This document shows, piece after piece, positions 11,870 through 62,498 of a stretch of DNA of 64,000 bases. This stretch comes from Anaerolinea thermolimosa (GTDB lineage: Bacteria > Chloroflexota > Anaerolineae > Anaerolineales > Anaerolineaceae): the NCBI RefSeq assembly GCF_001050195.2, contig NZ_DF967965.1, forward strand, positions 2,376,808-2,440,807. The letters run 5' to 3'. The notes beneath the pieces were generated by a model. That model worked only from the letters and a program-made list of their open reading frames with translations, did not search any database and had not been told where the DNA came from. How positions within the stretch are numbered: position 1 is the stretch's first letter; the number at the start of each line of letters is the position of its first letter. A program made the translations under genes and the position numbers.

Positions 11870-11905
11870 TTGTACATTATACGAACTGAGGATATACTAT
11901 GTACA
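11870..11905 (+). promoter_or_regulatory. Promoter of the photoreceptor operon with two TGTACA boxes
   Basis: TTGTAC (11870-11875) and TATACT (11893-11898) are 17 bases apart, a good sigma-70-type promoter. TGTACA occurs at 11871-11876, overlapping the -35, and again at 11900-11905, just after the -10. A variant pair recurs before the second receptor gene (12946 and 12964). Upstream, CATGAGA is repeated directly (about 11838-11857). CarH/LitR-type repressors bind promoter-overlapping boxes of this general kind, so autorepression in the dark is the inferred function. Confidence 0.7.
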
Positions 11906-11960
11906 ATCTTTGTCTAATTTGTGTGAATTGTATTTACCCGAAACATTTGAGGATGGAACC

Positions 11961-12926
11961 ATGTCCACCATTGACGAACTATCCGATCTACCAAAATACA
12001 CCATTAAAGCCGTCGCCAGCCAGACAGGCATTCGCCCGGTCACTCTCCGCGCCTGGGAACGCCGGCATGAGATACTCACTCCTCATCGCTCAGAAAATCA
12101 GTATCGTCTTTATTCTGATCGTGACATTGCTATTTTACGCTGGTTGAAAAACCGGGTGGATAATGGGATTTCCATCAGCAATGCCGCCGCTGAATTCCGC
12201 GCCATGGTTAATCAGCAATTGTGGCCCGAGGCCATCCCTTCCCTGCCCGAACGTCGCACCGGGGGACAGGCACATTCACCCAACTGGTATGCCAGCCAGT
12301 TAACCACCGCCCTGATGCAGCACGATGAGCAGACCTCTGCCACTTTGTTGCGCGAAGCCCACGCTCTCTTTGACCTGATGACCGTCTTCATGGATATTCT
12401 GGTGCCGTCCCTGGTAGAGATCGGTGAAGCCTGGTACACCGGGCGAATTCGTGTCACCACAGAGCATTTTGCCAGTGCTTTTTTACGCGGAAAGCTTTTA
12501 TCCCTTCTCCAGGCTTACCCCATCCGGCGTAACGCCCCCTACATTCTCCTGGGATGCGCCCCCATGGAACAGCACGAACTCGGCCCGTTGATGATCGCGG
12601 TACTCCTGCGAAGCGCTGGCTATCGGGTGGAATTTCTCGGGCCTGATTTACCCATTGATGACCTGGTAGATTACGCCACGTATGAGCGCCCCTCGATGAT
12701 CGTTCTCTCCGCCACTTCCGCCTCATCAGCCCTGGAGATGAAAACCATGCAACAAAAGTTAAGGAAAATGCGTCAGGCGCCCTTGTTTGGATACGGCGGC
12801 CGCGCCTTCGACCTGGATCCATCTCTGACCCGACAGGTACCGGGAATCTACCTCGGCAACACTCTGGAAAAAGCCACCCGGAAAATTAAAGAACTGCTCA
12901 ACCAGCCTGAAAAACGCCCGGCCTGA
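11961..12926 (+). CDS. CarH-type B12-dependent photoreceptor repressor, paralogue 1 (Tyr at the light-state His position)
   Basis: A protein of 321 residues: MerR-type winged-helix DNA-binding domain (about 10-80; TLRAWERRH), a helical-bundle domain and a C-terminal cobalamin-binding Rossmann domain. The photosensory signature W-x9-EH is present (Trp158, Glu168, His169), as is the cobalamin lower-ligand motif ExHxxG (Glu203, His205, Gly208). The residue after Trp158 is Tyr159; in Thermus CarH the equivalent is His132, which ligates cobalt after light. The ATG at 11961 has GAGG upstream; an earlier in-frame ATG (11745) would run through the promoter and is rejected. Expected role: AdoB12-dependent dark repressor of carotenoid genes. 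Confidence 0.85.
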   Translation: MSTIDELSDLPKYTIKAVASQTGIRPVTLRAWERRHEILTPHRSENQYRLYSDRDIAILRWLKNRVDNGISISNAAAEFRAMVNQQLWPEAIPSLPERRTGGQAHSPNWYASQLTTALMQHDEQTSATLLREAHALFDLMTVFMDILVPSLVEIGEAWYTGRIRVTTEHFASAFLRGKLLSLLQAYPIRRNAPYILLGCAPMEQHELGPLMIAVLLRSAGYRVEFLGPDLPIDDLVDYATYERPSMIVLSATSASSALEMKTMQQKLRKMRQAPLFGYGGRAFDLDPSLTRQVPGIYLGNTLEKATRKIKELLNQPEKRPA

Positions 12927-12991: not shown

Positions 12992-14074
12992 ATGATCGCT
13001 GAGCAACCGCTTCCCGAACCTGAAACCAGTCCTCCGGCTTTGAACAACCCGCATGGCGGTGAACACTCACCGCTCTATAATATCAAGGCAGTCTCCCGGT
13101 TGGTGGGTCTGCTCCCCGTGACCCTGCGAGCCTGGGAACGGCGGTATGGTCTGCCGCAGCCCCGGCGAGGGGAACAGGGGTATCGGCTCTACTCCGAATA
13201 CGACCTGCGCATCCTGCGCTGGCTGATCCGTCAGGTGGAATCTGGTCTGAGCATCGGACGTGCCGTTCGGTATCTAGAAGAATTACGTCGCTCCGGACAG
13301 GATCCGGCAACGAACGCCGCCCCCAGCCTGACAGGATCGGTGATGCCGTCTTCAAAGATTCACTCTACCGCCTGTGAAAACCTGGGTGCCGAATTGCTGG
13401 ACGCTATGGTTCATTTTGACGAGCCAACCGCTATGGAAGTGATCCGACGGGCCTTTGCCCTGTACCCGGTGGATCAGGTGTTGATAAACATTTTCGCCCC
13501 GATGATGGTCCAAATCGGAGAAATGTGGCATACTGGCCACCTGCCCATTGCTACCGAGCATTTTGCTTCGCAATGGGTTATTCAGCAATTGATGAGTATG
13601 CTGGCGGCAACCGGCCTGCCATCGCGTCCCGGATTGATTGTGGCCGCCTGTGCTCCGGGAGAAACCCATCAAATCGGGTTATTAATGCTGGTGGTCATCC
13701 TGCGCTGGCGGGGATGGAATGTCAGATACCTCGGCCCAGATCTCAGTCTGGAGCGATTAGAAGAAGCTCTGGCTCCCATCCACCCGACACTCTTGATGTT
13801 CTCTGCCAACCGACCTGAAACCGCGCGGAACCTGGAAGGGATTGAGAAAATTCTGAGACGGTTTCCCCAACCCTCTCCACTGGTCGTGGTGGGCGGAGCC
13901 GCATTTGATCATTTTCGCCTCGCCGAGTCGGTGCCGGTGATATATCTGAACACCCCGCCTGAAGAGACCATCTCCACTCTGGAAAACCTCCTCATGCAGT
14001 ATGCCCCATCCTCGCATTCTGTGCAGAGAAGTACTTCTTCCTCAGATCGCCCTCGAAGGAAAAACCATGTATAA
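12992..14074 (+). CDS. carH: CarH-type B12-dependent photoreceptor repressor, paralogue 2 (canonical)
   Basis: A protein of 360 residues with the same architecture as its neighbour. It has an N-terminal extension of about 25 residues, a MerR-type HTH (TLRAWERRYGLPQPRRGEQG), a linker of about 30 residues, a helical bundle and a B12-binding domain. The light-sensor residues match Thermus CarH fully: Trp179-His180, Glu189-His190, then Glu224, His226 and Gly229 in ETHQIG. With adenosylcobalamin it should form a DNA-bound tetramer in the dark that light breaks up. Tandem placement with a diverged paralogue suggests division of labour or mixed oligomers. The downstream MFS gene overlaps its 3' end by 8 bases. 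Confidence 0.88.
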   Translation: MIAEQPLPEPETSPPALNNPHGGEHSPLYNIKAVSRLVGLLPVTLRAWERRYGLPQPRRGEQGYRLYSEYDLRILRWLIRQVESGLSIGRAVRYLEELRRSGQDPATNAAPSLTGSVMPSSKIHSTACENLGAELLDAMVHFDEPTAMEVIRRAFALYPVDQVLINIFAPMMVQIGEMWHTGHLPIATEHFASQWVIQQLMSMLAATGLPSRPGLIVAACAPGETHQIGLLMLVVILRWRGWNVRYLGPDLSLERLEEALAPIHPTLLMFSANRPETARNLEGIEKILRRFPQPSPLVVVGGAAFDHFRLAESVPVIYLNTPPEETISTLENLLMQYAPSSHSVQRSTSSSDRPRRKNHV

Positions 14075-15326
14075 AAACAACAAAGCACTCGCCTCAATCA
14101 TCCTTGTCGTCTTCATTGATCTCCTCGGTTTCAGCCTGATTTTGCCCCTTTTACCCTACCTGGCACGTACTTTTCAGGCCAACGATGTGCAAATTGGTCT
14201 GCTGGTGGCCATCTACGCTGCCGCCCAGCTGATTGGCGCTCCCATTCTGGGCAGGCTCTCTGACCGTATTGGCCGCTGCCCCATCCTGCTTATTTCCATT
14301 GCTGGCAACGCTCTGGGTTTTTTACTCTTAGGATTGGCCAACAGCCTGGAAATGATCTTTTTCTCACGCCTTCTCGCCGGGTTGACCGCCGCGAATATCT
14401 CCGTCGCCCAGGCCTATGTCAGTGACGTGACCGACCGTCAAAACCGCGCCCGTGGCCTTGGCTTGATTGGCGCGGCTTTTGGTCTGGGGTTTATCATTGG
14501 CCCTGCCGCCGGTGGAGTATTGAGTCAGTTTGGTTACAGCCTGCCGGCATTCATGGCCGCCGGGCTTTCGGTGATGAATTTCTTCCTGGTTAGTTTCTGG
14601 CTGCCCGAATCGCTCACCCCGGAACAACGCGCAGCAAGCCCTCTCCATCAGCGGTCTCCCCTTTCCCTTCCAGCCCTGATCGAGGCCCTTCGCCGCCCAC
14701 TCACCGGCCCTCTATTGCACACCCGCTTCTTCTTCGGGCTGGCTTTTTCGCTCCTTCAAACTATTTTTTCCCTGTATGCGCTTTCGCGCTTCAACCTGGG
14801 AGCCCAGAGTACGGGATACATTCTGGCCTACGTTGGAATTCTTTCTGTGGTCACCCAGGGCGTTCTCGTCGGGCGGCTAACAGCACGTTTTTCTGAAACC
14901 CGGTTAATCCTTTCGGCCACCGTGTTGATGGCTGTGGGTTTATTAGGGTGGGGGCTTGCTCCCAGTGTGAGCGTCCTGCTGGTGGCACTGATTCCCACCG
15001 CCATCAGCGGCGGGCTGCTGAATACGGTCATCAATAGCGCACTCAGCAAAACCGTACCCCCTGAGCAGGTAGGTGGAATCCTGGGGCTCTCCACTTCTCT
15101 CGAAGCCTTCACCCGGGTTATTGCCCCATCTCTGGGCGGCGTACTTTTGGATGTGGTGGGAAAACGTTACGGAGTTATGGCCGGGACAGCAGCACCGGGA
15201 GTGCTTGCTTCGGGAATCTTAACCTGGCTTTCGTTTTACATTTATCGCTATATCTACCGTCCCCAGATTCGCGCGCAACAGACAGCCATGGAATCTATCG
15301 GTGCCCCCGCTGACCCGGATTGTTAA
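14067..15326 (+). CDS. MFS transporter (TetA/multidrug-efflux-like)
   Basis: A protein of 419 residues with about 12 membrane segments. Loop 2-3 carries the MFS signature GRLSDRIGRCP. Helix 4 has FFSRLLAGLTAANISVAQAY and helix 5 GLGLIGAAFGLGFIIGPAAGG, the motif C typical of drug:H+ antiporters. The ATG at 14067 has GAAGGA upstream and lies inside the end of the photoreceptor gene (8-base overlap), so it is co-translated with it and probably light-controlled. Cargo unknown; TetA-like efflux is the closest resemblance. Confidence 0.88.
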   Translation: MYKNNKALASIILVVFIDLLGFSLILPLLPYLARTFQANDVQIGLLVAIYAAAQLIGAPILGRLSDRIGRCPILLISIAGNALGFLLLGLANSLEMIFFSRLLAGLTAANISVAQAYVSDVTDRQNRARGLGLIGAAFGLGFIIGPAAGGVLSQFGYSLPAFMAAGLSVMNFFLVSFWLPESLTPEQRAASPLHQRSPLSLPALIEALRRPLTGPLLHTRFFFGLAFSLLQTIFSLYALSRFNLGAQSTGYILAYVGILSVVTQGVLVGRLTARFSETRLILSATVLMAVGLLGWGLAPSVSVLLVALIPTAISGGLLNTVINSALSKTVPPEQVGGILGLSTSLEAFTRVIAPSLGGVLLDVVGKRYGVMAGTAAPGVLASGILTWLSFYIYRYIYRPQIRAQQTAMESIGAPADPDC

Positions 15327-15763: not shown

Positions 15764-15894
15764 TTGCATTTCATCCCGGCCTACGTTTTCAAACACTCTC
15801 CCCACACGACCAGAAGGACGATACTCCCTTATACAATACGCGTGAAAAACCCACCTCGGATGATACAAACCTTCCTCAATCCCTCTACAATCTG

Positions 15895-15975: not shown

Positions 15976-17460
15976 ATGAGCAAGAAAATCATCATTATTG
16001 GGAGTGGTTTTGGTGGGCTTGGGGCGGCTGTGCGTCTGGCCGCCCGCGGGCACCAGGTGGAGATTTTTGAAAAACGAGATAAACCCGGGGGGCGGGCCTA
16101 TGTATATGAGATCAATGGTTTCAAATTCGACGGCGGCCCCACAGTTATAACCGCTCCATTCATGTTTGATGAGTTATTCGCCCTGGCAGGACGCCGCCGT
16201 GAAGATTACCTGACATTTGTGCCCTGTAACCCCTTCTACCGCATTTTTGACCACAAGGGGCGACAATTTGATTACAACAATGACCCCCGGATGATTCTGG
16301 AACAAATTGAGCAATGGAACCCTGCGGACAAAGAGGGATACCAGAAATTCATCCAGACCACGCGCCCAATCTTTGAGAAGGGGTTCATCGAACTGGCAGA
16401 CCAACCCTTTCTCCATATCACAGACATGTTACGTATTGCCCCTGATCTGATTCGCCTGCAATCGTACCGTTCCGTGTATGGATATGTATCCCAATTCGTG
16501 AAACATCCCTTTCTGCGAATGGTTTTCACTTTCCACCCTTTGCTGGTGGGAGGAAATCCCTTTGATACCACCAGTATCTATGCCATGATCCATTACCTGG
16601 AACGGGAATGGGGCGTCTATTATGCCATGGGGGGCACGGGCGCTATTGTCAACGCTCTGGTTCGGCTTTTCACCGAGCTCGGCGGGAAAATCCATCTCAA
16701 TTCCAGCGTGGAAGAAATCCTGGTGGGAGAAAAACGCCGGGTAAAGGGCATTCGTTTGAGTGACGGCAGTGTGCACCTTGCCGATGACATCATCAGCAAC
16801 GCGGATGTCGCCTGGACTTATCGGAACCTGATCCCCGCATGGGCTCGCAGGGTCAATTCTAACGCCCGCTATGATCGTATGCGCTATAGCATGTCGTTGT
16901 TTGTCATTTACTTCGGCACCCGAAGGCGCTACCTCGACAGCCGGCTGGCACATCACAATATTATCCTCAGTAACCGGTACCGAGATTTGCTTGATGATAT
17001 CTTCCATCGGAAAAAGCTGGCCGACGACTTCTCCCTTTACCTCCACATGCCCACCATTACCGACCCTTCTATAGCCCCGGAAGGATGCGAATCCTTTTAT
17101 GTCCTATCGCCGGTTCCGCACCTCGAAAGTGACGTTGACTGGCGCCGGATGGCTCCTGTGTATAAAGAAAAAATCCTCACCTTCCTGGAACAGCGCTATC
17201 TTCCTGACCTGCGGGCAAACATTATTGCCGAACACACAATCGATCCGTTGCATTTTGAGAACGAGCTTAACAGTTTTCGCGGTGCGGCCTTCTCGGTGCA
17301 ACCTATTCTCACCCAGTCCGCCTGGTTTCGGCCTCACAACCGCTCCGAAGACTTTGACAACCTCTATTTTGTAGGTGCTGGAACCCATCCCGGCGCTGGC
17401 CTCCCGGGAGTTCTGTCGTCATCAATCATTGCTGAGAAACTCATCCAGGAAACCGCCTGA
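15976..17460 (+). CDS. crtI: Phytoene desaturase-type carotenoid oxidoreductase
   Basis: A flavoprotein of 494 residues, the usual CrtI length. The N-terminal dinucleotide-binding motif [21 protein letters not shown] is followed by [12 protein letters not shown] and FDGGPTVI. The C-terminal signature [17 protein letters not shown] is intact. CrtI enzymes desaturate 15-cis-phytoene stepwise to neurosporene or lycopene at the membrane. Related enzymes act on diapophytoene; the neighbouring phytoene synthase favours a C40 substrate. GGAGAGGG precedes the ATG. crtB follows 28 bases after the stop. Confidence 0.92.
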
Positions 17461-17488
17461 AAAGGATCGGATGAAGAGAGGAGTTAAC

Positions 17489-18427
17489 ATGCCGTTCACT
17501 TCTGGAAGCCAATCGATCAGAACCTCGCCCAGATTACAGGCTGCACTGACAGCCACCGAAGAGGTCATCCGTAAACATTCCAGGACCTTTTTCTTCGCAA
17601 CTTCTCTGCTTCCCTTTCCTGAACGGTTAGCAATCCGGAGCCTGTACGCATTTTGCCGCGCCAGTGACGACCTGGTTGATTGTGCCAATACCACCCCCGC
17701 TGACCTGGAAGCCTGGCGAGCCCGGGTCAACCTCCCGTCTGAACAACAAACCGATCCCATTCTCCTCTCCTGGGCTCTGGTACGCGAACAGTATCCGATT
17801 GATCGCCAGTACGAGGGTGAACTTCTGGACGGAATCGCCATGGATCTTTCCTTTCGCCCGTACCCCACCTGGGAGACCCTCCAACATTATTGCTACCGTG
17901 TAGCCGCCACGGTGGGATTGCTTTCCATACCGGTGATTGGCCTGGCTCCGGGTGTAACCTTCGAACAGGCGGCTCCTTATGCCATTCGTCTGGGAATTGC
18001 CCTGCAACTTACCAACATCCTTCGCGATGTTGGTGAAGATGCTGACCGCGGACGGGTTTACTTTCCCCTTGAAGACCTTGCCCGATTTCATTTATCCATG
18101 AAGGATATCCTCAACCATGTATATGATGAGCGTTTTATCGCTCTGATGCAATTCGAAATCCGGCGAACCCGGCAGCTCTTCGAAGAATCATTACCTGGCA
18201 TCACCCTGCTAAGCCGGGTGGCACGCCCGGCTGTAGGGGCAGCATCTCTTCTCTACCGTGCCATTCTGGATGAAATCGAAGCCATTCATTACCAGGTTCA
18301 CGAAAAAAGGGCCCACACCAGCGCCTGGAAAAAGATCAGCATGTTGCCAAAAATTCTCTACTGTGTGTCTACCCTGGAGCGCCCCTCTTCCCTTCACCCT
18401 GCCCGCTTCCCAGAAACCGCGGGGTGA
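17489..18427 (+). CDS. crtB: Phytoene/squalene synthase family, likely phytoene synthase
   Basis: A protein of 312 residues. The first Asp-rich site appears as YAFCRASDDLVD, the second as LTNILRDVGEDADRGRVYFP, with HSRTFFFAT near the N-terminus: all standard for head-to-head prenyl synthases. It condenses two geranylgeranyl diphosphates to phytoene. Two upstream in-frame ATGs exist (17375, 17471), but AGAGGAG lies six bases before the ATG at 17489, which is chosen. With crtI it forms the minimal lycopene-type pathway; no cyclase is in the window. Confidence 0.92.
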   Translation: MPFTSGSQSIRTSPRLQAALTATEEVIRKHSRTFFFATSLLPFPERLAIRSLYAFCRASDDLVDCANTTPADLEAWRARVNLPSEQQTDPILLSWALVREQYPIDRQYEGELLDGIAMDLSFRPYPTWETLQHYCYRVAATVGLLSIPVIGLAPGVTFEQAAPYAIRLGIALQLTNILRDVGEDADRGRVYFPLEDLARFHLSMKDILNHVYDERFIALMQFEIRRTRQLFEESLPGITLLSRVARPAVGAASLLYRAILDEIEAIHYQVHEKRAHTSAWKKISMLPKILYCVSTLERPSSLHPARFPETAG

Positions 18428-19661: not shown

Positions 19662-21053
19662 TTATTTTTCAGCTCTACTCCGAAACCAACGCAATGCTCT
19701 CTCCCGGGCCAGCGCATGGTCAATCATCGGCATCGGATAATCGACCCCAATTCGAACCCCACATTTTCGTTGAATATCCTGAGGCATCAACCATGGAGAA
19801 TGAATATAGTCTGAAGGCACAGTCTCCAGTTCTGGCAGCCAACGGCGAATAAAAACCCCCTCCGGATCAAATTTCTTTCCCTGGAGCACGGGGTTAAAAA
19901 TCCGAAAAAACGGAGCGGCATCTGTGCCCACCCCGGCTGTCCATTGCCAGCCGCCAAGATTAGACGCCAGATCTCCATCGATCAGGTGACGCATAAACCA
20001 GCGCTCTCCTTCTCGCCAGTGAATAAGCAAGTCTTTGGAAAGGAAAGAAGCGACAATCATCCTTCCCCGGTTATGCATCCATCCTGTGGCAATTAACTGA
20101 CGCATACAGGCATCCACTACCGGGTAGCCTGTCTGACCGAACTGCCAGGCGGCCAGTTCTGCTTCAGAGTGTCGCCATGGCATTGCGCGCATCATCGGTT
20201 GGAAAGCAGTGTCGACCACAAAAGGGAAATGAAACAGAACGCTGTGGTAGAAATCTCTCCAGATGAGCTCGTTCAACCAGGTTTCGCACCCTCTTTGCCC
20301 CACCGGGTTGGTGACCTGACAGGATAACTCCAAAACACGGGTGGCTGCCAAACGCGGTGAAAGCATCCCGAACCTGAGGTAAGGCGAAAGTTTTGAAGTA
20401 CCCTCAAGGTCGAGGCGATCACGCACTTCGTGGTACATCCAAACGTCATTCCCGAGAAAATCCTCCAATCTCTGGCGTGCACTGAGCTCTCCCGGAATAA
20501 ACAACCCGTTCGTATCATTCACCTCCGGTAAAGACTCAGTTGTCAGTGCCGGGAGCGGAGGAAAACGTTCCGGGAGATCCACTCTGGGTGGGGGTATCGG
20601 CAGGGCCTTCCAGGCTTTGCTGAAAGGCGTAAACACCGTATAAGGCTTGCCATCCGGTTGTCTTATTGCCTGCGGTGGATGAACAGTGATTCCTCCCACA
20701 AGCTTTAAAGGCAAAATACGAGCCACCCGCTCATCTCGCCTGTTCGCGTAGGGGCCAGTATCATGTACGGCAAAAATCAACTCTGCACCGGTTTCTTCAA
20801 CCAGCCGATTGAGCACCATTTCGGGCGGGCCGCTACGAATGATTAATTGACTACCCCGCTTGCGTAATTCGGTATCCAGCTCCCTTAATCCACCGAACAG
20901 GAAAGCCTGCCTGGCTAACGCTTCTCCCCTCAAAAGATAGGGATCAAGGATAAATAATGGAACGAGGAACCCCCCGGTTTCCAGTGCAGCCTGGAGAGCT
21001 TCATTATCCTGGAGACGTAGATCTCTCCGGGTCCACCAGATCACCACACTCAT
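19662..21053 (-). CDS. phrB: Deoxyribodipyrimidine photolyase (class I)
   Basis: A protein of 463 residues. The N-terminal antenna domain starts VVIWWTRRDLRLQDNEAL. The FAD-binding C-terminal domain shows WRDFYHSVLFHFP, GWMHNRGRMIVASFLSKDL and DGDLASNLGGWQWTAGVGTD. It repairs UV-induced cyclobutane dimers with blue light. AAGGAGGGTGA immediately precedes the ATG. It is upstream of the Rieske gene on the same strand with a 41-base gap, so the two are probably co-transcribed. A photolyase beside CarH and crt genes is a recurrent light-defence arrangement. Confidence 0.95.
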   Translation of the reverse strand: MSVVIWWTRRDLRLQDNEALQAALETGGFLVPLFILDPYLLRGEALARQAFLFGGLRELDTELRKRGSQLIIRSGPPEMVLNRLVEETGAELIFAVHDTGPYANRRDERVARILPLKLVGGITVHPPQAIRQPDGKPYTVFTPFSKAWKALPIPPPRVDLPERFPPLPALTTESLPEVNDTNGLFIPGELSARQRLEDFLGNDVWMYHEVRDRLDLEGTSKLSPYLRFGMLSPRLAATRVLELSCQVTNPVGQRGCETWLNELIWRDFYHSVLFHFPFVVDTAFQPMMRAMPWRHSEAELAAWQFGQTGYPVVDACMRQLIATGWMHNRGRMIVASFLSKDLLIHWREGERWFMRHLIDGDLASNLGGWQWTAGVGTDAAPFFRIFNPVLQGKKFDPEGVFIRRWLPELETVPSDYIHSPWLMPQDIQRKCGVRIGVDYPMPMIDHALARERALRWFRSRAEK

Positions 21054-22640: not shown

Positions 22641-25600
22641 CTACTCCAGATTCTGATCAAGAGGTAAGGTGAACGAAAAGGTACTTCCTTCACCCGGAAT
22701 GCCCGGGCTGGTAAACCAGATGCGTCCACGGTGCATTTCTACCAGCGTTTTGGCCACTGCCAGTCCCAGGCCAGTTCCTGCAGTGGCCAGCACAAGCGGA
22801 TGCTCGCCGCGGTAAAACCGCTCGAACATGCGGGGCTGCTCATCGGGGGCAATGCCGATGCCCGTATCCTTTACATCCACCTGAATTTCTCCATTTTGAT
22901 GGCTCAGAACCACCGTCACTGTGCCGTTTGCAGGGGTATAGTTATACCCGTTACTGACCAGATTACCAATCACCTGCCGAATACGCTCCAGGTCGCCCAT
23001 CACCTGCGGAAGATCATCCGCCGCCTGCAGGGCAAAGGTCATGGGCTTGTTCTCTTCTCGTGAACGGCGCTGTACATCGAGGATCACCTCGTGGGCAATT
23101 TCCCGCAAATCAAGCCACTGGTAATTTAACTTCACCCGCCCCGACTCAATCCGCGAGAGATCGAGCAGGTCATTGACGAGGGTGCCCAGGCGCTCAGTGT
23201 TACTGCGTACGATTTCAAGGAAATGGCGCTGCTGAGCGGTCAACTCACCTGCCGCCCCCATCAGCATGATTTCCACGTACCCTTTAATCGAGGTCATCGG
23301 GGTGCGTAATTCGTGGCTTACATTCGCCACGAACTCTGATTTCATCCGGTCTACCTGCACTTCGTGGGTAATGTCGCGCAAGATGGAAACCGTTCCCAGG
23401 AACTGTGAACGCCAGAAAACCGGAGCAAGATGAACCGCGATGACACTCCCGGTATCCAGGTCAAATTCATCGGCAAAATCATCCCCTTTGTACGACTGCG
23501 GGTCCTTCAACCATTGTTGAATCGTGCGTACCCAGCTCAGGCTGGAACGTCCCCAGACCCCGGTAAAGGCGTCCAGCCTCTTTCCGATCACCTCATTAAC
23601 CGGCAGATCAAGAATACGTTCTGCTGAAGCATTAAAAAGGGTGACCTGACCGCTGGCATCGGTCACAATAACTCCATCAGCCACAGCTTCTAGAATCGCC
23701 CGCGAGCGGCTGGCCTCAATTTGTTGCTCACGCAGCATATTCCCAAGGTTTTCCGATTGATCACGGATCAGGTTGAACAATTCAGCATTGTTAATCGTGA
23801 TGGCAATCTGCCGGGCAGTTGCCTCTACAAGCCCCAGCTGCGAAGCCTGGAAGAACCCCGCCTCCCGGTGAAACAACAACAGAGCTCCGAGGGCATCTTC
23901 TCCCATGATAAGTGGAGCCGCCAGCACACTCCGGTAGGCAGGTAAGCTCGAGCCTTCTTCCAGCCAGTGGCTTTCCTTTGCAATATCTTCGATAAGGAGA
24001 GATTGCCGCGAGCGGGCCGCCTCACGCATGATCCGCCTCTCCAGCGCCAGACCATTCTCAGCCGCCCCACCCGCTGAGGTCAATGCCTCACCGGCCCGAT
24101 AGGGCTTCTGGGTGCTTTCCAAAAGCATCGCCAGGCTCTCCTGAGACCCAATCGATTCATTGATCACCATTAAGGCACGGCTCATCACCAACCCCATATC
24201 CAAGCTGGTCGAAAGTTCACTGATAATCCGCAGGAGCGTCTGCGAATTCTGATGTTCTCTGCGTAACTCGCTGGTACGCTCTTCGACGCGCCGTTCCAGG
24301 AACTCGCTCAGAGTGCGCGTTTCTTCAAAGAGCCGTGCATTCTGAATGGCAATAGCGGCCTGGTTACATACCGTACGTGCCAGCTCAATTTCGGAAACCG
24401 TAAAGCGGTAGCTCACATTTTTTTGCACCATGAGCCACCCATAAAGCGTTCCACCTGCCAGCAGGGGCACAATAAGAACCGAGAGAATACCGCGTGGGGC
24501 AAAGTACGCCTCAAACATCGGCGCCAGGTCTGGCTCACCAGAGACCTGAACGGTGGAGAAAATTCCCTTTGAGTCTTTCAAACGGTCAAACAATGGCACA
24601 TCCAGCAGGGCCATGGGTAAATGGGCCCTCTGTGGGGGGGTTTCTATCTCCAGAATGTACTTATCCCCCGGGCCAATCATCACCCCTGCCACTATGGATG
24701 CATTCAACGCCCCAAGCATGTGCTCGGCAGTCACCTGGAGAATCGTCCCCATTTCCAGAGAAGCCCCTAATTCTTCAGACAGCCGGTTAAGCAGCGCCAG
24801 CCTTCGGGAGCGCTGGTCCAGTTCGCCAGCCCGACGCAGGCTTTCTTCAAACAGACGGGCGTTCTCCAAAGCTGCCGCCACCTGCCCGGCAAAGGTAGCA
24901 GCGGCGTGAATGTGCTCAGGAGAATAGAAACCTGCTTCACGTTTCTCCAGCGCCAGCAACCCGATGACTTCCCCTTTGACAATCAGCGGCATTCCCAGCC
25001 AGGAAAGATTTTCTGGCTCTACCAGAGATGGGAAGCGTGGATCAGCACGCACATCCCGCACCGTGACAGGCTCTCCCGTCTGAATCATTTCCCGGAACAG
25101 GGCACTGTCTTCTACCGCGGCGGTAAGGCCAATACGGCTCTCATTATCCTCAAAGCCCTGAGCGGCAAGGATCGAAAGAACATTTCCGCGCCGCATCCAG
25201 AGGGTTGCCGTCTCATAGGGGATGACCGTCGCCAGGTAATCGAGGAGCGAACCAATGAGCTCTTCCTGTCGCAGGCTGGCCGTCAATTTGGCCGAAGCGC
25301 GGGTAAGATTGAGCAATTGATCAGCGCGCGACTCGGCTGCCTGGAAGAGACGGGCATTATCCAGAGCCAGAGCCGCCTGTTGAGCAAATGAATAGGCCAG
25401 CGCCTCATCTTCTGGAGAAAACGCACCGCTGGTCTCAAAATTCTCCAATACCAGCACCCCACTGATCCGGTCTGCCGGACGCAAAGGCAGTACCATACAG
25501 GAGACCGGCAGTTTACCCCGCGTGGCCTGACGGTAGCGCATGAGGTCTTCTGACGAAAGCTGGTATTGCGTGGCAAAATCCACCTCGGCAACTCGCAGCG

Positions 25601-28600
25601 GTTCACCGGAACGTAAAACCCGAAGCAACAACAGGCGCGGTTCCTCGCCAAGAATCCCCGTCGCACTCACCAGGCTGTAGCGAATCATCCGATGGGCTTC
25701 ATCATCTGCATACCCCCTTGAAACCTGAGGGATGACCGTCAATTGTTGTTCGTGAATCATTCCTGCCCAGGCAGCCTGGGCCTGCGGCAAAACTTTTCTT
25801 ACATTTTCAACCAGGGTGGTAAGGATACTCTCCGGTTCCAGGCTTCCCAGGCTTCGGCTGAACTCCAGCAAGAGATTGACTTCATCCAGCCGCCGTTTGG
25901 TCTCGGTGAGCAGACGCAGGTTCTGCAAGGACGTACCCACCTGATCGGCCACCTGCCTGAAAACTCGGTAATCCTCTTCCGAAAACACTCCCAGATTGCG
26001 CCGCCCAACCGCCATTACCGCCGTGGGGTTTTCGGTACCGGTCAATCGAAGGGCGATGACGCTTCGTGCTCCAAGGGCCGAGAGAAGCGGTGTTCCATGC
26101 CAGTCAGGATCGTTTTCCAGGCTTGAAATGAGCAACACACCCCTGGCTTCCTGCCCTTCCTGAAGCAGCCAGTGGAAAGGATTCCGCTGCCCCATCAAGG
26201 CTTCAGGGTTTGTGCCTTCCGGGACTGTGCCCAGTGTATCCACCAACCGAACACCGCCAGACGAAGCCTCGGCGATCAGCGCCGTTTGCATCGCAAAGTG
26301 CATCAGCAAGCCCCGGCAAAGGGTTTGTAAAACAGCCGAAGCTTCTTCTTCAGCCGCGGCTTGAGCCGCGATCTCAAGCAGGGCACGAATACGCTCGATG
26401 CGGTTGCTGAGATCTTGCAAAGCGAGGGTTTGCTCCAGGTCTTTTCGTAACAGGACAGGTAAATTCTGACGGGCAGTCTCAGCTACGTGCATCAGTTGTT
26501 GCCGGGTATTTTCCAAAACAGCAACCCGACTTTCAAGCGATGAAGTTCGCCGGTGATTCTCAATCATCAGCCCGGCCTGCAGGCCAAACACATCCAACGC
26601 CTCAAAAGTAGGACGATCCGGTCTGCGGCCATCGGATGGTGCATCCACACTGATTAATCCAATCGGCTCATTAGACGAGTCATATAACGGCACCAGCAAA
26701 AAGTCATCGGCATTCCAGGCATCCGGTGAATGAGAATCCCCTCCCGGGGTTACTGGTAAAGTATGCACTTCTGGCGGAATTATGGGGGTCTGGTCAGCCG
26801 GAATAAAGTACACACTCCCGTTTCTAAACTCGGGCCGAAGCAGGTTTTTCAACCCACTCCAGGGCTGACGATGACTCCGCAACTCTTCCCACTGCTCCGG
26901 TGAGAGGCCACTTCCTACCACCCTGCGGAGATGCCCATCCTGTGCATCCACCACACTGATCACCACTACCTGGAAAGGCGTGGCCTGCCGGATGGCTTCA
27001 CTGATAGTAATCAGTGATTCCTCCAGCGGCAGGGTTGGTTTGAGCAGACGCGAGACCCGCAACAACTCAGCCAGCGTATCCAGCTCACGCTTGAGCAACA
27101 GGTTGCGCTGGGCCTGTTCCTCCGCCTGGATCAGGTTCCCCATGGCCGCCCCCACCTGCATCGCCAGAGTCTGCATGGTTTCTAAAGCGGATTCATCCAG
27201 GCCATTCTCCGACCTGCTATGAAGGCTTATCAACCCGATCACCCGCTGACGGTGGAAGAATGGCACACTGAGACATGCCAGAACCCCCTCGTGAGGTGGT
27301 TCTTCGGCTTCCTGGTGAATACTTCGTACCAGGATCGAACTGTTCCGGGCTAAAACTTTCCTCTCCACCCAGGTCAGTCCAGGCTGGCAGGTCAACCCAA
27401 AAGCTTCGCGCACAGACGGAAGACCATCTTCGCCCACTCTGTCCTGAAATACCAGAAGGATGCCGCAATCAGCCCGTGTTAGTTGCAGAGCTTCTGTATG
27501 AACGCGCTGGATCAAATCACTCAGGCGGGAAAAACCATTCAACTCCCGGCTCAGTCGGGTGATTGCGGTCAACTGTTCCAACCGCCGCCGCAACGATTCG
27601 TCGGTTTGCGAACGCAGGGCCATTTGCTCTACCGATCCGGCCAGTTGCCCGGCGGCGGTGGCGATCATTTGCACATCAGCGTGGTCAAAGAAATGCGCTT
27701 CGCGGCTGACAAACAGCAACTCACCGATCCCCTCGCTACGCACGATGAGAGGCACCCCGATAACTGACTGAGCCCCCCACACCTTGAAAGCCTCCCGATA
27801 AAATGGGATTACGGCATCCGAGTCAGAGAGGGAGTCAATCTTCAACAGGCGTTGTGAACCGGTAATGGTGAAAGGAAATTCTGGCTGATCGACAAGCAGC
27901 TGCCTGCATTCATCTGGCAGAGAAGCCGCACCAAACAGAGAAGCCTGGTGTAGCTGTAACTGCGAGGATGAGGGATCCAGCAAATAGATCGCCCCTACAT
28001 CGGCACGTAAAAGACGGGTAAACTCCTGAATGGAATATTTGAGAATCTCATCCAGCGTCGCCGCCGACCCTGCCAGGCTGGAAATTCGACGTAAGGCTTC
28101 AGCCCGCTGAGCTCTTTGCCGCGCCTGTTGCACCAGGGTGGCATTTTCAATGATCGAGGCTGCCTGATTGGCAATGATGGTTAACAAATGGAGCTCAGAA
28201 GGAGAAAACGACCCGCCCCCCGGGTGATTGGCGGCCTGCAAATATCCCAGCATTTGGCCGCCCGAATTTAACGGCACCAGCACCGTCTCGCGCAGACTGG
28301 CCGCCTGGGCCACAAAAGAAAGTCCCAGTGCTTCCCATTGAGGGTCGCTGGAGGCATCCTCAGAAATAAGCACATCCTGGTCAAGAAGCATTTGCTCTGC
28401 CGCCGAGTTTACCGGTACGGGAGCCCGATAAAGTTCCACAATCTGGTCGGGCAACCCATGAAACGGAATCTGAGCCTCCAGCATCCGTTGATTTTCGTTG
28501 TAAAGGATAAAGCCAAGGATCTCAACCCGGAGAAGAGGAGCAATGGATTCTACCAGTCGAGAAAACAGATTCCTGGGATCACGTACCGAACCAAACGCCT

Positions 28601-29597
28601 GAGCCAGCTGAGAAAGCCCGCTCAGCTCAGCACTGCGCTCTTTTTCCTCCCGGTAGATCAGCGCATTGTGAATGGCAACTGCCGCCTGCCCGGAAAGCAA
28701 GCGAAGCAGAGTAAGATCGGCTTCATGGAAAGCCTCAGGAGTGCGCGAGCCCAGCTCCAGCGTACCTACAAATTCCCGCCCTACCATGAGAGGCACACCC
28801 AGGTACGACCGCACTCCCGGCATCCTTTCGGATTCTGGGTGAAGGTCTGAGCGCTGAATTACGTCTTGAATCCACAGGGGAGAGCGTTCACGGTACAAAT
28901 AGCCACTGGTTCCCTCAACATGGCGGTAGGGCGGCGAAACCTTAAGTAACCCCCGCTGAGAAGTCGACTGCCAGCCATAACGGTAAGGGGTCAATTGCTG
29001 GGTATCCGCATTCCAGATCGTGATCTCAAGAAAATCGGCGGGGATCAGCTTTTCCACATTCTCCATGACCGCCTGAATCGTCTCTTCCACATCCAGACTG
29101 GCGGCCATAGCCGCGCTCAGTTCCGTAAAGATACGCAGAGTCTGAGCACTGGCGCCTGTTTCCTGCCCGGTAAGCTCTGCCGCCAGCTCTGGAAAACGAA
29201 GGGCCACCACGATCAGCGTTTCCTGCGAAAAAACCAGGCGATACGAGGTAGCTTCAACAAAACGATCATCGAGGGTAAAATGCGCCTGGCCTTCGGCAGC
29301 ACACAGGTTGAGAAATGCATCCGGTGGACGAATTCGCCGCACCAGCCGTTCCAGATCGGGCAATTCTTCCGCTTCCAGACCAAAAACCTGGCGCGCCCGT
29401 TCGTTCATCGCCGAGACCCGCCCTCCGGATCGAACTACCAGGACGGCATCTTCCAGGTTCCCCTGCAGGCTCTGGGCAACGAGAAGGTCATTCTCTCTTG
29501 GGCGCAAGGCAGGGGTGGCACGTGTCACCAGAAAGGCTGTTGCAAAAAAGAACAGCCCGACGAGCACCAACCCCAGGCCCAGATGAAGAGTGTCCAC
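22641..29597 (-). CDS. Giant hybrid-sensor histidine kinase with about ten GAF domains
   Basis: A protein of 2318 residues. It has one N-terminal membrane helix (about 6-26) and a PAS-like domain (about 45-130). About ten GAF domains follow in series (about 150 to 1960), each ending in a recognisable strand such as SYLGVPLMVGREFVGTLEL or SWLGMPLIVKGEVIGLLAL; some are joined by coiled coils (for example FLERRVEERTSELRREHQNS). Next come a PAS domain (about 1980-2080), HisKA with His2095 (VANVSHELRTP) and HATPase_c with N, DTGIGI and TGLGLAV boxes. There is no receiver domain. It is flanked by two response regulators in one operon. The GAFs carry no obvious bilin Cys, so the ligands are unknown. 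Confidence 0.93.
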   Translation of the reverse strand: MDTLHLGLGLVLVGLFFFATAFLVTRATPALRPRENDLLVAQSLQGNLEDAVLVVRSGGRVSAMNERARQVFGLEAEELPDLERLVRRIRPPDAFLNLCAAEGQAHFTLDDRFVEATSYRLVFSQETLIVVALRFPELAAELTGQETGASAQTLRIFTELSAAMAASLDVEETIQAVMENVEKLIPADFLEITIWNADTQQLTPYRYGWQSTSQRGLLKVSPPYRHVEGTSGYLYRERSPLWIQDVIQRSDLHPESERMPGVRSYLGVPLMVGREFVGTLELGSRTPEAFHEADLTLLRLLSGQAAVAIHNALIYREEKERSAELSGLSQLAQAFGSVRDPRNLFSRLVESIAPLLRVEILGFILYNENQRMLEAQIPFHGLPDQIVELYRAPVPVNSAAEQMLLDQDVLISEDASSDPQWEALGLSFVAQAASLRETVLVPLNSGGQMLGYLQAANHPGGGSFSPSELHLLTIIANQAASIIENATLVQQARQRAQRAEALRRISSLAGSAATLDEILKYSIQEFTRLLRADVGAIYLLDPSSSQLQLHQASLFGAASLPDECRQLLVDQPEFPFTITGSQRLLKIDSLSDSDAVIPFYREAFKVWGAQSVIGVPLIVRSEGIGELLFVSREAHFFDHADVQMIATAAGQLAGSVEQMALRSQTDESLRRRLEQLTAITRLSRELNGFSRLSDLIQRVHTEALQLTRADCGILLVFQDRVGEDGLPSVREAFGLTCQPGLTWVERKVLARNSSILVRSIHQEAEEPPHEGVLACLSVPFFHRQRVIGLISLHSRSENGLDESALETMQTLAMQVGAAMGNLIQAEEQAQRNLLLKRELDTLAELLRVSRLLKPTLPLEESLITISEAIRQATPFQVVVISVVDAQDGHLRRVVGSGLSPEQWEELRSHRQPWSGLKNLLRPEFRNGSVYFIPADQTPIIPPEVHTLPVTPGGDSHSPDAWNADDFLLVPLYDSSNEPIGLISVDAPSDGRRPDRPTFEALDVFGLQAGLMIENHRRTSSLESRVAVLENTRQQLMHVAETARQNLPVLLRKDLEQTLALQDLSNRIERIRALLEIAAQAAAEEEASAVLQTLCRGLLMHFAMQTALIAEASSGGVRLVDTLGTVPEGTNPEALMGQRNPFHWLLQEGQEARGVLLISSLENDPDWHGTPLLSALGARSVIALRLTGTENPTAVMAVGRRNLGVFSEEDYRVFRQVADQVGTSLQNLRLLTETKRRLDEVNLLLEFSRSLGSLEPESILTTLVENVRKVLPQAQAAWAGMIHEQQLTVIPQVSRGYADDEAHRMIRYSLVSATGILGEEPRLLLLRVLRSGEPLRVAEVDFATQYQLSSEDLMRYRQATRGKLPVSCMVLPLRPADRISGVLVLENFETSGAFSPEDEALAYSFAQQAALALDNARLFQAAESRADQLLNLTRASAKLTASLRQEELIGSLLDYLATVIPYETATLWMRRGNVLSILAAQGFEDNESRIGLTAAVEDSALFREMIQTGEPVTVRDVRADPRFPSLVEPENLSWLGMPLIVKGEVIGLLALEKREAGFYSPEHIHAAATFAGQVAAALENARLFEESLRRAGELDQRSRRLALLNRLSEELGASLEMGTILQVTAEHMLGALNASIVAGVMIGPGDKYILEIETPPQRAHLPMALLDVPLFDRLKDSKGIFSTVQVSGEPDLAPMFEAYFAPRGILSVLIVPLLAGGTLYGWLMVQKNVSYRFTVSEIELARTVCNQAAIAIQNARLFEETRTLSEFLERRVEERTSELRREHQNSQTLLRIISELSTSLDMGLVMSRALMVINESIGSQESLAMLLESTQKPYRAGEALTSAGGAAENGLALERRIMREAARSRQSLLIEDIAKESHWLEEGSSLPAYRSVLAAPLIMGEDALGALLLFHREAGFFQASQLGLVEATARQIAITINNAELFNLIRDQSENLGNMLREQQIEASRSRAILEAVADGVIVTDASGQVTLFNASAERILDLPVNEVIGKRLDAFTGVWGRSSLSWVRTIQQWLKDPQSYKGDDFADEFDLDTGSVIAVHLAPVFWRSQFLGTVSILRDITHEVQVDRMKSEFVANVSHELRTPMTSIKGYVEIMLMGAAGELTAQQRHFLEIVRSNTERLGTLVNDLLDLSRIESGRVKLNYQWLDLREIAHEVILDVQRRSREENKPMTFALQAADDLPQVMGDLERIRQVIGNLVSNGYNYTPANGTVTVVLSHQNGEIQVDVKDTGIGIAPDEQPRMFERFYRGEHPLVLATAGTGLGLAVAKTLVEMHRGRIWFTSPGIPGEGSTFSFTLPLDQNLE

Positions 29598-29612: not shown

Positions 29613-30512
29613 CTACTTACTCAGTGAATCCTGCCGGCGTTCCTCTGCTGCAAGTTCAGTAATTTCCCGAATATCCGCAAAATAATGCGTGGCTGGAGAG
29701 ACAACCCCCACCGCAAGGGTCATCAATGGGGTAGGCTCGATGTGGCCATCCGAGTCCGGAGCAAGGATATACCCCTGCTGACGATCCATAAAATTGTAAT
29801 GGGTGACCACTTCATCACGAAAACGCTCTTTGAGGCGGCGTTTAATCGCATCGGCGCGGTCTTCAGCCGTCAGGATCACAAAATTATCTCCACCAGCATG
29901 GCCAAGAAAGTCATTGGGGGTACCCAGTTCATCAATCACCTCGCCCAACAGCATGGCCGCGAAACGCAAGACATCTCCCGCTGCAATAAACCCGTAGACA
30001 TTTTTAAACGGCTCAAAATGATTGATCCTCACATCCAGAAATGCCCAGCCAGCAGGTTTGCGAATGGCCTGTCGGAGCTGATCTTCGATCATCCGCCCGG
30101 CAGGCAACCCCGTTTGCGGGTCGGTCAGACTTTCACGCTCCGAGCGGGCAATGGCATTCTGCACCCGCAGTTTCAATTCGTCGATGTCAAAGGGTTTGGT
30201 AATATAATCATCGGCGCCCAGTTCTAATCCCTGTAAACGGTCACTCCGCTCGTCTTTCTGCGTCAGGAAAATAACCGGAATATGGCTGGTTCGAGTGGTC
30301 GTCCGCAGAATGCGGCACACCTCATATCCGTTAATGTCAGGAAGCATAATATCCAGTACGATGAGATGAGGCATGCTCTGCCGGGTTTTTTCCAGTGCGT
30401 CCTGGCCGCGCAGGGCTGTTTCCACATCATACCCCTGGCTGGCGAAGTAGATCTTCAACATATTGGAGATATCAATATCGTCTTCGACGATCAAAAGACG
30501 AGCTTTTCCCAT
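29613..30512 (-). CDS. Response regulator with degenerate GGDEF domain
   Basis: A protein of 299 residues. It has an N-terminal receiver (Glu10-Asp11-Asp12, Asp54, Lys106) joined by a short helix with SLTDPQTGLPAGR (the start of a GGDEF domain) to a C-terminal diguanylate-cyclase fold. The active-site loop reads GGDNF (residues 207-211) instead of GG[DE]EF, and the region before it is divergent, so catalysis is doubtful. It more likely binds GTP or a partner. First gene of the operon with the giant kinase, starting 15 bases before it; the kinase could phosphorylate both regulators. Confidence 0.88.
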   Translation of the reverse strand: MGKARLLIVEDDIDISNMLKIYFASQGYDVETALRGQDALEKTRQSMPHLIVLDIMLPDINGYEVCRILRTTTRTSHIPVIFLTQKDERSDRLQGLELGADDYITKPFDIDELKLRVQNAIARSERESLTDPQTGLPAGRMIEDQLRQAIRKPAGWAFLDVRINHFEPFKNVYGFIAAGDVLRFAAMLLGEVIDELGTPNDFLGHAGGDNFVILTAEDRADAIKRRLKERFRDEVVTHYNFMDRQQGYILAPDSDGHIEPTPLMTLAVGVVSPATHYFADIREITELAAEERRQDSLSK

Positions 30513-38624: not shown

Positions 38625-38707
38625 TCGTATCCTCTTCGGAGAAACATTCAGCCAGCCCAAACATTGACGTAGAAACACGTTCACCATATAATAACGTCAA
38701 CAATTCA

Positions 38708-38790
38708 ACGGGGAGCCCGTAGGACGGGCTGAGAGGAGGGTAGCTACCCTCGACCCGCAGAACCTGATCCGGGTAATGCCGGCGGAGGGA
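38708..38790 (+). ncRNA. TPP (thiamine pyrophosphate) riboswitch aptamer
   Basis: All conserved blocks of the THI element are visible: ACGGGGAGCCC at the 5' end, GGGCTGAGAGG (the CUGAGA core), the variable P3 arm, then ACCTGATCCGGGTAATGCCGG and GCGGAGGGA. It precedes thiN-thiB-thiP, which fits thiamine salvage. A terminator hairpin follows 17 bases later, so it is an OFF switch that binds TPP. Confidence 0.97.
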
Positions 38791-38807
38791 AAACAGCCAG
38801 ACCTTTT

Positions 38808-38835
38808 AAAGACCCTCCCCGGCGGAGGGTCTTTT
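38808..38835 (+). terminator. TPP-controlled terminator that also holds the thiN ribosome binding site
   Basis: AAAGACCCTCC (38808-38818) pairs with GGAGGGTCTTT (38824-38834) around CCGGC, followed by T residues. The GGAGGG in the 3' arm is 8 bases before the thiN ATG and is the only Shine-Dalgarno there. The nonamer GGCGGAGGG occurs both at the aptamer 3' end (38781-38789) and here (38821-38829), so the CCCTCC arm can pair with either copy. This suggests mutually exclusive antiterminator and terminator. Confidence 0.85.
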
Positions 38836-62427: not shown

Positions 62428-62498
62428 TGGGGCGTGGTGCAATGGCAGCACACCAGACTTTGGATCTGTGGATCTTGGTTCGAATCCAGGCGCCCCAG
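62428..62498 (+). tRNA. tRNA-Gln (anticodon TTG)
   Basis: A 71-base cloverleaf. Acceptor TGGGGCG/CGCCCCA with discriminator G, D-stem GTGC/GCAC, anticodon loop CTTTGGA with TTG (reads CAA), T-arm CTTGG-TTCGAAT-CCAGG. The anticodon stem has one mismatch at its outer pair. CCA is not encoded. The weak T1-A72 pair and G73 match identity elements used by GlnRS, whose gene is also in this window. Confidence 0.95.

Follow-up and report, generated by a model that had tools for sequence, protein, structure and literature searches.

Locking of the light state by His132 is the textbook last step of light sensing by CarH and of the optogenetic tools built on it. The locus described here raises the question of what a tyrosine does at this position. 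The title of a 2016 paper by Takano reportedly refers to a 'semi-conserved histidine' of the LitR light-sensing domain. The DNA analysed, 64,000 nucleotides of Anaerolinea thermolimosa (NZ_DF967965.1; hereafter the window), carries two paralogous MerR-B12 genes, the upstream P1 with tyrosine and the downstream P2 with histidine.

Two paralogues that differ at the His132 position

P1 is a MerR-B12 regulator encoded on the + strand at 11961 to 12926 by a single open frame of 321 amino acids, and P2, of 360 amino acids, follows on the same strand after a gap of 65 bp (12992 to 14074). The assignments come from Pfam, phmmer, motifs and a structural model for P1, and from Pfam, alignment and motifs for P2. 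In both proteins the Pfam domains MerR_1, B12-binding_2 and B12-binding scored over cut-off, and both have the CarH/LitR class I layout of a MerR DNA-binding domain, a four-helix bundle and a Rossmann B12 domain. The Wx9EH motif of P1 runs from W158 to E168-H169 and has Tyr159 directly after the tryptophan (codon 12435 to 12437, + strand, placed by residue number and alignment), and from E203 the protein matches the strict motif [DE]xHxxG-x41-SxT-x22-27-GG, inside which lies the predicted lower ligand His205. The gapless phmmer alignment to solved structures sets P1 GEAWYTGRIRVTTEH against TtCarH GEAWHRGEIGVAEEH, so that Tyr159 corresponds to His132 and His205 to His177. In P2 the motif starts at W179, followed by His180 and E189-H190; the lower histidine is His226, and the strict long motif is interrupted by SAN where SxT/V is expected. 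Translation and phmmer thus bear out what the earlier note had read at this locus, namely Trp158-Tyr159 in P1 where Thermus CarH has Trp131-His132, and Trp179-His180 in P2. The histidine after the tryptophan, which serves class I CarH/LitR proteins as upper ligand in the bis-His light state, is present in P2 and absent from P1.

The window P1 has the equivalents of Trp131, Glu141, His142 and His177, and its histidines are at positions 36, 42, 105, 121, 134, 169 and 205. It does not match the signature GxxW, EH, GxxH, GxxxP published in PMC11796333, having Met for Gly in GxxH, and both paralogues remained far short of the cut-off of the NCBIfam CarH equivalog NF052513 (149.4 bits for P1 and 151.3 for P2, cut-off 400). 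The AlphaFold model of P1 (pLDDT 90) ends after the Rossmann domain; it matched the B12 domain of TtCarH with a Z of about 23 (rmsd 1.7-1.8 Å) and the photocobilin SasPcob with a Z of 23.5 (2.1 Å). In the recognition helix P1 reads RAWERRH (His36; window 12066-12068) where CarH has RxWERRY; this position is His in 16 and Tyr in 14 of the 30 P1 proteins with a lower histidine, and Tyr in 19/19 P2 proteins.

The two proteins share 38% identity, and with P1 as query (E up to 0.001) the genome yielded P1, P2 and two weak B12-domain matches only, in open frames of 1214 and 225 amino acids. A recent tandem duplication was rejected on this identity and on the AU test of P1 plus P2 as one clade (p 0.002; 79-row subset, the group having been defined once the first tree was known); the P1 and P2 clades are not sisters in the tree. 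Conservation of P1 was similar to that of P2 in all three domains, which indicates that P1 genes belonging to pairs are not undergoing decay and, as far as sequences can tell, points to purifying selection.

Tyrosine and histidine among the homologues

We aligned 187 non-redundant MerR-B12 homologues, most of them from Anaerolineae and the rest from other Chloroflexota or, as eight outgroups, from plasmids. They were drawn from 207 matches after 16 near-duplicates had been removed along with 4 B12 matches that were partial or unrelated; the scan of named genomes contributed its best 80 matches (79 loci), and the plasmid-borne sequences are 8 of 60 among the matches listed. All counts below concern related sequences and not independent events, and absences weigh little because many of the genomes are drafts. 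At the His132 position we found Tyr in 90 homologues, His in 53, Ala and Glu in 10 each, Phe in 9 and Arg in 4, the rarer states being Ser (3), Gln (2), Leu (2), Asp, Val, Thr and Cys (1 each). In this sample weighted to Anaerolineae, Tyr/Phe is thus the commonest state (99) and His the second, and the earlier view of P1 as the deviant paralogue shifts accordingly. The tree, computed with the His132 column removed, recovered a P1 clade of 39 proteins (support 86; Tyr 32, Phe 5, His 1, Ala 1) and a P2 clade of 19 (support 98; His 18, Gln 1). Since 37/39 of the one are Tyr/Phe and 18/19 of the other are His, the tyrosine is no chance single change, and the difference is, at the level of sequence, an old one kept between two lineages.

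The tree requires at least 10 changes of Tyr/Phe. A single origin of the tyrosine, with P1, four basal rows and the globin-type rows described below as one clade, was rejected (AU p 0.005), a result that row L127 (globin-type, placed near P2 in the tree) may alone cause. The largest difference among the columns ranked was Pro at the 160 position, found in 96/99 Tyr/Phe rows and 28/88 others; the alignment is uncertain there, as Pro lies one residue later in several P2 proteins. Gly160 of TtCarH is a proposed hinge in the part of the literature available. A coupling of Tyr/Phe132 with Pro160 was dropped as independent contrasts showed nothing (6 supported pairs, mostly without difference). The four-part signature, with GxxxP placed by our own assignment at Tt199-203, was found in 39/187 homologues, in 0/39 P1 and in 2/19 P2 proteins.

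Outside the P1 clade, 61/62 of the Tyr/Phe proteins carry an extra C-terminal helical domain. Among the 70 proteins with this domain, 61 have Tyr/Phe (4 of them Phe), 7 His and 2 Leu; among the 59 without it and outside both clades, there is one Tyr and no Phe. The domain had no Pfam match in 13/14 members (one match was marginal) and no convincing match to PDB sequences. Its model (pLDDT 85) matched best smURFP and allophycocyanin (Z about 14), followed SasPcob over 114 residues (Z 12.9, 2.2 Å) and AbDPcob with a Z of 11.9, and nearly all of the 50 rows shown were bilin-binding globins. Helical models can score Z 13-14 without true relation, and the globin-like call hence relies on the consistency of the rows. 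These long regulators, of which the protein at L074:4898-5362 and 69 other Anaerolineae homologues are members, possibly represent MerR-type photocobilins, judging from the models. According to PMC10979010, in the part available, earlier work had proposed that transcription factors are regulated by photoglobin domains coupled to B12 domains, and MerR-photocobilin architectures may already be listed there. A profile of the domain matched 0/39 P1 and 0/19 P2 proteins, so that the globin of photocobilins is absent from P1. Sequences and models together suggest that Tyr at position 132 goes, in this phylum, with photocobilin-like regulators, P1 being the only large Tyr family that lacks the extra domain.

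The remaining cofactor residues were then compared within the P1 clade. The full core of Trp, Glu, His142 and His177 is present in 28/39 proteins (14/16 from tandem loci and 14/23 from single ones), and the Wx9EH tryptophan in 38/39. The lower axial histidine is missing in nine of the 39 (Asp 3, Arg 2, Gln 2, Lys 1, Asn 1), and in four of these nine Arg takes the place of Glu141 as well. Gly174, the glycine of the published GxxH element, is absent from 38/39 proteins, the window protein included. Because of these losses, part of the clade may be light-blind. Tyr/Phe is retained in all nine proteins without the lower histidine, and its survival at a broken cobalt site points to packing and not to metal binding; the five Phe proteins show that the hydroxyl is not required. 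Within the B12 domain, most P1 proteins share just two histidines apart from His205, namely His121 (Tt94, where TtCarH has Gly) and His169 (Tt142). His121 is a trait of P1, found in 24/30 proteins with the lower histidine and in 0/19 P2, and it also occurs in 7/9 of those lacking the lower histidine. The alignment check for a substitute histidine, proposed earlier, therefore yielded two conserved candidates, His121 and His169, which sequence neither establishes in that role nor eliminates. A subclade of P1 (L047-L055 and L191) has mostly lost the lower histidine, with Arg for Glu141 in four members; its genes often lie directly downstream of a PGA_cap lipoprotein gene. This linkage, in a subclade mostly without the lower histidine, suggests another role there.

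Neighbouring genes, distribution of the pair and operator-like repeats

Downstream of the pair, all on the + strand, lie an MFS transporter gene (14001 to 15326; its first ATG overlaps P2 and a later start is possible), a crtI-family phytoene desaturase gene (15976 to 17460; TIGR02734, 598 bits, cut-off 238) and a crtB-type phytoene/squalene synthase gene (17375 to 18427; PF00494 over cut-off). A DNA photolyase-family gene is found on the - strand at 19662 to 21053 (PF00875 over cut-off, NCBIfam equivalog cut-offs missed). The MFS transporter gene adjoins the pair in several relatives as well. The literature searched contained no paper on CarH and carotenoids in Chloroflexota. Further along the window we noted a frame of 2318 amino acids on the - strand (22641-29597), histidine-kinase-like and with many GAF-like repeats by eye, an adjoining response-regulator-like gene (29613-30512, -), a TPP riboswitch (38699-38808, +) and a tRNA gene (62428-62498, +).

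The distribution of the pair was surveyed in 37 genomes of the family, searched with P1 (E up to 1e-15). Both paralogues were present in 11/37, P1 alone in 9/37 and P2 alone in none. The earlier suggestion that the Tyr protein is a dedicated dark-state partner is thus half right: the two occur together in 11 genomes and P2 never alone, but P1 occurs by itself in nine and must work there without P2. In 9/11 pair genomes a crtB gene is found no more than 4 kb from the pair; a crtB-type gene was found in 2/9 P1-only genomes and was not adjacent. P2 therefore goes with the carotenoid cluster, and P1 is more widespread. Photolyase genes were detected in 9/11 pair genomes and 4/9 P1-only genomes. 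A PF01923 cobalamin adenosyltransferase gene is present in the window's genome and in 30/33 genomes searched. A haem-copper oxidase gene, also present in the window's genome, was found in 15/33, with no clear association with the pair (7/11) as compared with P1 alone (4/9) that would speak for a link to oxygen.

Tandem pairs had been put forward for a survey, and the 16 that we collected all have P1 before P2 on the same strand. In 14/16, P1 has Tyr/Phe and P2 the full set of Trp, His132, Glu, His142 and His177. In one further pair (L038:3974-6004) P1 has His132 and His177 and P2 lacks His177, the roles being seemingly swapped; in another (L019) neither protein is complete, P1 lacking Trp and His177 and P2 having Gln132. 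None of the 16 pairs combines two complete bis-His receptors.

A candidate CarH-type operator, made of three perfect tandem 11-bp TnnACA repeats, lies on the - strand at 11900 to 11927 and ends 33 bp before the ATG of P1; it is the sole triple with zero mismatches in the window. The 11-bp TnnACA repeat is reported as the operator unit of TtCarH and BmCarH (PMC9304148, part of the text). A weak two-repeat site precedes P2 (12935 to 12951, +; 7/8 bases of the consensus), and operator-like repeats precede crtI (15862 to 15889, +; 10/12 bases, a score reached by 0/60 shuffles of the region). Across the window, triples with at most two mismatches numbered 4 (2.24 expected; 19/100 shuffles reach 4) and perfect pairs 3 (0.86 expected; 7/100 shuffles reach 3). 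Because these counts show no excess, the case for the operator rests on where the site lies and on how the loci compare. In the 170 bp upstream of the gene, a perfect repeat pair was found for P1 in 9/16 tandem loci and for P2 in 8/19, as compared with 0/23 loci with P1 alone and with 2% of a set of 3000 random windows; the difference between tandem and P1-only loci (Fisher p 5e-5) ignores relatedness. It is missing at 7/16 tandem P1 loci, and all these operators are predicted by consensus match. The statement that P1-only genomes have lost the operator proved too strong, with two counterexamples: in the P1-only genome G029, P1 directly follows a fasciclin gene (L187:8600-9460) that is itself preceded by several TnnACA repeats, and the basal relative G046 has a perfect triple before its gene. 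A fasciclin gene also lies upstream of P1 in L186, and another adjoins a MerR gene on an Eleftheria plasmid.

Light state predicted for P1 and competing explanations

Several B12 photoreceptors without the upper histidine are described in partly available reports. At the His132 position CtMerR has Arg, SasPcob Gln and AbDPcob Tyr, and green light bleaches these three proteins and TaCarH to a form peaking at 356 nm, interpreted as hydroxo- or water-ligated cobalamin (PMC11796333). The light structure of SasPcob shows Co(III) ligated by water or hydroxide, the bis-His rearrangement being absent (PMC10979010), and the light form of TtCarH H132A is hydroxylated Co(III) absorbing at 352 nm instead of 359 nm (PMC10442372). 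The position was thus already known to vary, and a tyrosine there has a precedent. By analogy, the default expectation for a Tyr protein is a light state other than bis-His, and the different photoproduct predicted by the earlier note is likely, backed by the 356-nm forms and by the 352-nm form of H132A. Tyr probably marks a different light-state chemistry and not a unique oddity. The slower or reversible response that the note also considered gained no support here, and the published effects on the oligomer are less uniform: light takes CtMerR from tetramer to monomer and leaves the AbDPcob domain, assayed without biliverdin, a dimer (PMC11796333), and TtCarH H132A was mostly tetrameric in the light although an earlier report had disassembly (PMC10442372). 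Because of the H132A tetramer and the AbDPcob dimer, a Tyr protein might conceivably bleach without releasing DNA.

On balance, we think it somewhat probable that P1 is an AdoCbl-binding repressor of the CarH/LitR type, with a water- or hydroxo-ligated light state and no bis-His lock, paired with a His-type CarH. For the pair we infer AdoCbl binding, photochemistry, oligomer state, repression and shared operators alike. In the dark, P1 would bind AdoCbl base-off through His205, with the adenosyl group stacked on Trp158, and would oligomerise and occupy the 11-bp repeats that precede its gene and, perhaps, those ahead of the carotenoid genes downstream. In the light, breakage of the Co-C bond would leave cobalt unoccupied by residue 159 and produce water- or hydroxo-Co(III); release from DNA would come through the lost adenosyl contact, as proposed for SasPcob, and not through a His132 lock. 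P2, with His180, would reach the oxygen-dependent bis-His state of classical CarH while acting on operators identical or related to those of P1, and a single operon would then hold two B12 switches with different light states.

The main rival reading takes P1 as a CarA-like, light-blind and B12-independent regulator whose B12 domain serves oligomerisation or docking, light acting through P2 or another protein; we regard it as a serious possibility, though an unlikely one. The tandem order is that of myxobacterial carA-carH, with the non-canonical gene upstream (PMC9304148, part of the text), and the erosion of the P1 clade (the lower histidine lost in 9/39, Arg for Glu141 in four, the GxxH glycine gone in 38/39) fits such a role, as does the subclade mostly without the lower histidine, in which PGA_cap often precedes P1 and crtB is absent from the one genome tested (G019). 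However, the window protein and 28/39 of the clade keep the full cofactor core, the tryptophan that CarA has lost (PMC9304148) is kept in 38/39, and P2 cannot be the sole light input where it is missing, in the nine family genomes with P1 alone. Two further readings retain light sensing and give cobalt another upper ligand. That His169 (His142) or His121 (Tt94) replaces His132 appears improbable: a model of 2015 put H132 and H142 both near the upper face, and the P1-specific His121 sits, in the P1 model, in the loop that joins bundle helices 107-119 and 123-136, where the topology probably brings it to the same end as Trp158/Glu168; yet TtCarH H132A retains H142 and still gives hydroxylated Co(III) (PMC10442372, part of the text), and the presence of His121 in seven of the nine proteins without the lower histidine unties it from cobalt. 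A tyrosinate ligand from Tyr159 itself we consider very improbable. Its position would be right and 32/39 of the clade have Tyr, but Phe stands there in 5/39 P1 and 4/70 globin-type proteins, Tyr/Phe persists in 9/9 proteins without the lower histidine, and for AbDPcob, itself a Tyr protein, the reported ligand is hydroxide or water (PMC11796333, part of the text).

Set beside known systems, P1 shares with class I CarH/LitR of Thermus thermophilus the MerR domain, the two-part B12 domain, Wx9EH and ExHxxG, and the window locus shares with it the 11-bp TnnACA repeats and nearby crtB and photolyase genes; P1 differs in its Tyr for His132, its non-Gly residue at the Gly of GxxH, an identity of about 30% and its tandem with a second, non-sister paralogue. 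The other comparisons draw on partly available texts. SasPcob and AbDPcob have the same B12 fold (Z about 23) and no upper histidine (PMC10979010, PMC11796333), but the studied photocobilins combine a bilin-binding globin with no MerR domain, whereas P1 has MerR and no globin. CtMerR of Chloracidobacterium thermophilum is, like P1, a MerR-family B12 protein without the upper histidine; it responds to light with Arg where P1 has Tyr, and the available text of PMC11796333 does not describe it as one of a pair. The myxobacterial CarA-CarH pair resembles P1-P2 in its tandem MerR-B12 genes at a carotenoid operon, its non-canonical upstream member and its 11-bp repeats, but CarA is without the Wx9EH tryptophan kept as Trp158 in P1, gene duplication is inferred by the authors whereas P1 and P2 do not form one clade, and it is the canonical gene that is found alone in myxobacteria, as opposed to the non-canonical P1 in the family surveyed here (PMC9304148).

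A wider proposal, tentative and in our estimate doubtful, would see the pair as a two-chemistry switch. It would join a Tyr-type receptor (water/hydroxo, photocobilin-like and possibly re-chargeable with fresh AdoCbl) to a His-type one with the locked, oxygen-dependent bis-His state, on shared 11-bp operators and perhaps in mixed oligomers; in this family the Tyr type would act as core regulator, with the His type accompanying the carotenoid genes. Linked to this, the Anaerolineae would hold a large, mostly Tyr-type group of bilin-globin-like MerR regulators, that is, photocobilin-like transcription factors.

The replacement of His by Tyr alone is a known kind of variation; what is new is the kept Tyr/His pairing in an operator-linked operon and the link to photocobilin-like MerR proteins. 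A Tyr-type beside a His-type receptor in a natural operon, with a readable operator, offers a test bed for the purpose of His132. With His in a minority (53/187) and the four-part signature in 39/187, screens that demand either would overlook many possible B12 regulators of the phylum.
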